Assembly: GCA_014825775.1 (NCBI GenBank)
Contig: MVAQ01000377.1
Coordinates: forward strand, 1 to 11,346
DNA: 11,346 nt
Direction: 5' to 3'
From: Krasilnikovozyma curviuscula
Lineage: Eukaryota > Basidiomycota > Tremellomycetes > Cystofilobasidiales > Mrakiaceae
Below are positions 8,046 through 11,275 of this stretch, piece after piece. The notes under the pieces are model-generated. The model was not told the origin of the DNA. It was given only the letters and a program-made list of their open reading frames with translations, and made no database searches. The translations under genes were made by a program, and so were the position numbers. Numbering within the stretch: position 1 is the stretch's first letter; the number at the start of each line of letters is the position of its first letter.

Positions 8046-11275
<3,230 letters not shown>

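Follow-up and report, generated by a model that had tools for sequence, protein, structure and literature searches.

Nuclear one-nucleotide exons have already been published for plant APC11, plant VPS55 and Fusarium CYP621A. The single-nucleotide exon of Arabidopsis APC11 was proved with cDNA and protoplast mutants, and its authors suggested consecutive removal of the introns that flank it (Guo and Liu, 2015; PMC4674806). The one-nucleotide microexon of plant VPS55 is conserved throughout land plants and is supported by RNA-seq and RT-PCR; intron retention around it yields other products (Yu et al., 2022; PMC8831610). In Fusarium, the single-nucleotide exon of CYP621A was found in 20 or more orthologs and in 18 RNA reads, and its origin was proposed to be the loss of a base followed by rescue through a cryptic exon (Nelson and Syed, 2026; PMC12940212). 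Mitochondrial genomes hold further cases: group II introns of a fungal rnl are separated by a single A (PMC12308204), and a one-nucleotide exon has also been described in a placozoan (PMC5436844). An earlier, sequence-only reading of the locus treated here had called such exons extremely rare and cited a single Arabidopsis report; APC11 does exist, but it is not the sole case, given VPS55, CYP621A with its RNA support and the mitochondrial examples. Our literature search, with most subscription journals outside its coverage, found no one-nucleotide exon for any basidiomycete or for DBP2.

Both the position and the length of the dbp2 intron are stated to be conserved, and low splicing efficiency has been reported for it in various organisms (Kilchert, 2015; PMC4695336). 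The intron of S. cerevisiae Dbp2 is described as slow to splice and as self-regulated (PMC5393171). Here we describe a DBP2 gene in which a single A at position 8787 is, with a probability that we place at about 0.83, a real one-nucleotide coding exon, the old phase-1 long intron having been kept, a 70-nt intron gained and the short intron being removed first. If real, the exon would be a test of how the spliceosome copes when only one base parts an acceptor from a donor, and it stands in a conserved gene that in yeast has a slow and self-regulated intron. Its origin may moreover be readable, as a relative displays the one-intron state.

The DBP2 gene in the window

The window, that is the whole stretch of DNA analysed, is one entire contig of 11,346 bases from a 22.4-Mb genome. 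A DBP2/DDX5 ortholog spans positions 11275 to 8046 on the minus strand. The protein matches show 59-89% identity (120 listed of 7980), and among these the named ones are nearly all basidiomycete, with one insect. The best-matching solved structure is that of S. cerevisiae Dbp2, and Pfam DEAD and Helicase_C matches lie in exons 4-5. A 28-row tree places the window outside a starred 13-row group with Cryptococcus, Kwoniella and Trichosporonales, and beside Filobasidium, Naganishia and others without resolution. On this placement and on the protein matches listed we call the source a tremellomycete-like basidiomycete. The features used below are as follows.

8046..11275, minus strand: DBP2/DDX5 ortholog, 12 recognisable exons including the candidate one-nucleotide exon, 5' end outside the contig
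9756..10199, minus strand: exon 5, ending ...ATTGCTACTGAT, the IATD of motif V
9693..9755, minus strand: 63-nt intron, phase 0, GTGAGT...TTGAC...ACACAG
9674..9692, minus strand: 19-nt exon (exon 6), GTCGCTTCGCGTGGTCTTG, read as V A S R G L plus G, ending CGT GGT CTT G
8788..9673, minus strand: 886-nt intron, phase 1, GTACGT...CTATAG, at the site of the relatives' long DBP2 intron
8787..8787, minus strand: A, candidate one-nucleotide exon, second base of the Asp codon G-A-T in motif V
8717..8786, minus strand: 70-nt intron, phase 2, GTGAGT, branch motif CTGAC, CTACAG
8598..8716, minus strand: 119-nt exon, beginning TGTCAAGG, that is T, then GTC AAG GAC
8481..8483, minus strand: TGA terminating the frame in which the A is skipped (957-nt intron), three model introns farther downstream

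The letters and coordinates that the sequence-only reading gave for the 19-nt exon, the A at 8787, the 70-nt intron and the exon from 8716 proved correct on the minus strand. When the 12 exons, including the one-nucleotide exon, were joined by hand, 528 codons and a stop were obtained; the frame is open over these codons only if the A is included and shifts without it. It had been argued that the total coding length is divisible by three only with this extra base. The phase argument holds for the flanking exons, the 5' end of the gene being off the contig. The last coding exon (8046-8050) consists of GG and the stop codon TAA only. Elsewhere on the minus strand of the window are pieces of neighbouring genes for a seven-bladed lactonase (PF10282; 6434-7379) and a putative mannosyltransferase (PF11051; 1097-1756).

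A candidate A for the motif V aspartate

In the genomic letters, CTTG is followed by G, and TGTCAAG is likewise preceded by G. Because both boundary bases are G, no single intron can supply the A of the Asp codon, and the frame needs a base that is contiguous with neither neighbouring coding exon. The A at 8787 has an AG acceptor directly before it, a GT donor directly after it and plausible introns on both sides, the upstream one with a weak branch site. Under the two-intron layout the genomic letters across the locus are CTACAGTGTCAAG and CTACAGTGTC. When the A joins the exons, motif V reads ATDVASRGLDVKD, and the mRNA predicted to be made with this A would carry the junction CTTG-A-TGTCAAG (longer form CTTGATGTCAAG).

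Every AG-x-GT in the 957-nt interval was listed for x = 1, 4 ... 28, with the frame left open. This gave 15 open in-frame micro-exon candidates. Only one of them, the A at 8787, yields exactly RGL-D-VKD, and the same candidate is the only one with a perfect GTRAGT donor (6/6). Two others start with Asp, both 10-nt exons, and read DQSL-VKD (donor 4/6) and DFWN-VKD (donor 3/6). The sole other one-nucleotide candidate in the interval is a C with a donor of 2/6. The proposal that a one-nucleotide exon completes motif V is thus supported, as the only GT-AG solution that we found to give RGL-D-VKD.

The Asp itself was examined in 169 protein models (120 listed of 7980 matches and 49 further ones from 120 listed of 629). 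D directly follows RGL or RGI in 125 of the 169 listed models. The remaining 44 comprise 27 that read RGL-G and then diverge, 10 without the motif and seven others, of which six seem to read into an intron and one is without Asp. Among the matches to a shorter piece, RG[LIM]D was found in 118 of the 120 listed, and human DDX17 and S. cerevisiae Dbp2 also carry the Asp. With 44 of 169 being without RGL or RGI followed by D, many gene models are doubtful at this junction. One complete model, from Saitozyma podzolica (P0025), reads RGLVKD with the Asp absent; this model could be wrong. The same model and those of Kwoniella newhampshirensis (P0007) and Dioszegia hungarica (P0044) miss 1 to 6 residues at or just past the junction. 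These gaps might reflect further micro-exons or wrong acceptors.

The frequency with which such a site would arise by chance was estimated in two ways. In 20,000 dinucleotide shuffles of the 957-nt interval, [CT]AG-A-GTRAGT occurred in 0.145%, and in 0.01% when it had to leave a 45-130-nt intron behind it; for YAG-N-GTRAGT the values were 0.585% and 0.075%. The actual interval contains one site. As a control on real DNA, 100 kb of the same genome was searched on both strands (200 kb), where YAG-A-GTRAGT occurred 2 times and YAG-N-GTRAGT 4 times, or about 0.01-0.02 per 957 nt. Real DNA is richer in such sites than the shuffles. A well-formed short intron stood behind one of the four YAG-N-GTRAGT control sites, which by eye resembles an ordinary tubulin exon end. 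Sites of this kind are expected by chance at about 0.1-2% per interval of this length, which is unlikely, but not astronomically so. The arrangement falls exactly where one base is required.

It is conceivable that the missing A is an assembly or sequencing error, the true genome reading CTACAG|ATGTCAAG (CTACAGATGTC in DNA), with one ordinary 957-nt intron and a coincidental AG-A-GT within it. The locus is on a single draft contig, the 3' end CTGAC...TTTTCTACAG seems a better acceptor than CTATAG, and a protein model from the Naganishia clade (see below) implies exactly this one-intron layout. Such an error would, however, have had to remove one base exactly at a splice boundary, outside a homopolymer and in a gene that is otherwise open over its exons. 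It also needs the YAG-A-GTRAGT site and the ordinary 70-nt intron to be a second coincidence (about 0.1-2% per interval). Because two coincidences are required, we rate this explanation as improbable. The frame could also be kept by other splice forms, all with AG and GT borders: the donor of exon 6 shifted by 4 nt (GTACTT), giving RGL-GT-VKD, the 7-nt exon GCAGCTA (donor 5/6), giving RGL-GSY-VKD, or one of the 10-nt exons. All of these change the spacing of motif V, against the D that stands straight after RGL or RGI in the great part of the listed models (125 of 169), and where a micro-exon is used its donor reaches only 3 to 5 of 6, compared with 6 of 6 for that of the A. A product with motif V altered in one of these ways is very hard to credit, and the one-nucleotide exon at 8787 is the reading that we follow below.

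The long intron and a proposed origin of the double split

The DBP2/DDX5 intron is reportedly conserved and inefficiently spliced, as work by Iggo in 1991 and by Barta and Iggo in 1995 is said to have described. In the 27 relatives' models that read RGL-G, the next letter is M in 9, T in 8, K in 7, A in 2 and R in 1; unrelated letters follow. These protein letters (not DNA) can be read as read-through into an intron that starts G|GT, i.e., CTN G|GT, in phase 1 of the Asp codon. Many basidiomycete models would thus point to a long phase-1 intron by which the Asp codon of motif V is divided into G|AT. The model P0241, from the Naganishia clade, runs for 242 codons past RGL and then continues with Q-MSRTSN... 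Its -1 frame is compatible with all 29 residues after the junction, ...RTGR (shuffles: at most 5 in 2000). This fit implies one 725-nt intron ending CAG|ATGTC (CAG|ATGTCAAGG). The same model shows no second intron at the junction. The only relative junction that was legible, that of the P0241 protein model, therefore gives no support for conservation of the A between AG and GT.

The Asp of S. cerevisiae Dbp2 is residue 425, as counted on the alignment. The first coding exon of S. cerevisiae DBP2, which we take to be 1273 nt long, presumably ends one base into codon 425, and the yeast intron seems to have the same phase as the 886-nt intron of the window. The long intron of the window lies at the conserved DBP2/DDX5 place (phase 1, motif V Asp codon), a coincidence of position on which the sequence-only reading was silent. 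Because the relatives' read-through models, the S. cerevisiae phase and the published conservation of the dbp2 intron agree, the 886-nt intron is most likely the old DBP2 intron and the 70-nt intron one base on the novelty. The old position is supported by the protein models of relatives; the lineage-specific gain of the 70-nt intron is inferred.

This position of the upstream intron suggests how a one-base exon could have originated. The old long phase-1 intron, with the Asp codon cut as G|AT, would have stayed put, and in this lineage an ordinary intron of 70 nt would have been added one base farther downstream, leaving the codon as G|A|T. A different origin, which would leave the exon itself in place, is possible although we hold it to be the less probable one. 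Here the first exonic base behind an old acceptor CTACAG would have been lost, and a cryptic AG-A-GT in the long intron would have rescued the frame, no intron being inserted. The better branch site and pyrimidine tract at the downstream acceptor agree with such a loss; its path, however, requires that a conserved gene be frameshifted on the way, and also that a perfect donor, followed by a 70-nt intron of ordinary kind, was already there by luck. Gain of the 70-nt intron beside the old one remains our preferred account of the origin.

Several searches for a source of the intron or for a direct comparison were negative within their scope. Neither the 70-nt nor the 886-nt intron was found a second time in a search of the genome (common words skipped), and the idea of an introner was rejected. 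DNA of a close relative at the locus was found neither in viral contigs, which gave none, nor in genome contigs, which gave only two bacterial loci at 25-28% identity. A 158-aa piece spanning the junction served to look for a transcript of the species itself, and no protein from it was present among the matches listed (top score at 87% identity, maximum 89% over 73% of the piece). With an N-terminal query the best match listed had 81% identity.

Probable splicing order and comparison with known systems

No CTRAY branch motif is present in the last 70 nt of the 886-nt intron; the 70-nt intron has CTGAC. The length of the latter fits 50 selected introns of the same genome (median 74.5), which were chosen for branch motif, length and donor from 153 ORF-pair candidates (62 with branch motif; noisy) and are uninformative on motif frequency. 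The other short introns of the gene measure 63-119 nt. The downstream acceptor CTACAG is stronger than CTATAG, and with its weak branch site CTATAG could perhaps be unused. Because the signals of the 70-nt intron are good and the end of the 886-nt intron is without CTRAY, the two are probably removed sequentially, the short one first. The 70-nt intron, with its perfect donor, CTGAC and usual length, would leave first by intron definition. The A would then adjoin TGTCAAG and restore the acceptor context CTATAG|ATGTCAAG, and the 886-nt intron with its weak branch site would leave second to give GAT.

Four mis-spliced forms were tested, and each runs into a stop codon. When the long intron is retained, alone or with the short one, the product reaches a stop within a few codons; retention of the 70-nt intron only gives RGLE-stop; and skipping of the A shifts the frame to the TGA at 8483-8481. 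By analogy with yeast, slow splicing and self-regulation may also apply to the 886-nt intron.

Some further observations concern the introns themselves. A 13-nt perfect inverted repeat (9705-9717 and 8807-8819) has one arm around the branch site of the 63-nt intron and the other at the 3' end of the 886-nt intron. It forms a helix in the predicted fold, most pairs with a probability of about 0.95, and shuffles reach such a length in 5-7%. The fold of the 957-nt interval as a whole gave no signal (z -1.44; of 20 shuffles, 2 fold equally well), and no RNA family was found at gathering score within the window. Over 12 nt the 63-nt and 70-nt introns have near-identical donors (9744-9755 and 8775-8786; GTGAGTCTTTCT / GTGAGTCTTCCT). 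At its 5' end the 886-nt intron has 51 nt (9623-9673) that resemble a complete small intron (GTACGT, CTAAT, TGACAG), and GTGAGC lies 7 nt past this stretch, making a poison micro-exon possible. Two JGI proteins on short contigs (P0244, 1854 bases; P0245, 1651 bases) read into the DBP2 intron after RGL and may represent transcripts that retain it.

One could speculate that the one-base exon acts as a splice-order checkpoint over an autoregulatory DBP2 intron. Only the short-then-long order would give protein, DBP2 protein or stress would shift the balance, and the 13-nt complement would serve as the switch. If the long donor paired with the stronger downstream acceptor, the A would be skipped and the frameshifted RNA would end at the TGA at 8483-8481. 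We consider such a role unlikely.

Two known arrangements with consecutive splicing were considered as descriptions of the locus and rejected. Fungal stwintrons (PMC5639578) resemble it in that two introns are removed consecutively from what appears to be a single intervening sequence. In a stwintron, however, a splice signal of the outer intron is interrupted by the inner one, whereas in DBP2 the outer acceptor CTATAG is intact and ends one coding base before the inner intron starts. Recursive splicing with a zero-length exon does not apply either, as the A is kept between AG and GT and is needed for the frame. The fungal rnl shares with DBP2 a single A that is the exon between neighbouring introns, but its introns are organellar, of the self-splicing type and in an rRNA gene; they are not spliceosomal.

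The published nuclear cases can be set beside the locus as well. In APC11 a single A likewise lies between AG and GT within an interval once annotated as one long intron (A333), and the frame needs it. The VPS55 microexon shares the single base with a GTRAGT donor and was also overlooked by annotation. CYP621A is, like DBP2, a fungal nuclear gene in which the middle base of a conserved codon is set apart by the same phase logic (Gly of PKG, Asp of motif V). The DBP2 exon differs from all three in being known from the sequence of one fungal genome: APC11 was proved by experiment, VPS55 is conserved across land plants with RNA support, and CYP621A is an ascomycete P450 with an interval of 139 nt in F. 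graminearum, in contrast to the 957 nt of this basidiomycete helicase. A further difference from APC11 is the long neighbouring intron, which in fungi is old. With the known DBP2/DDX5 intron the locus shares a long intron at the conserved place; what sets it apart is a second intron one base later.
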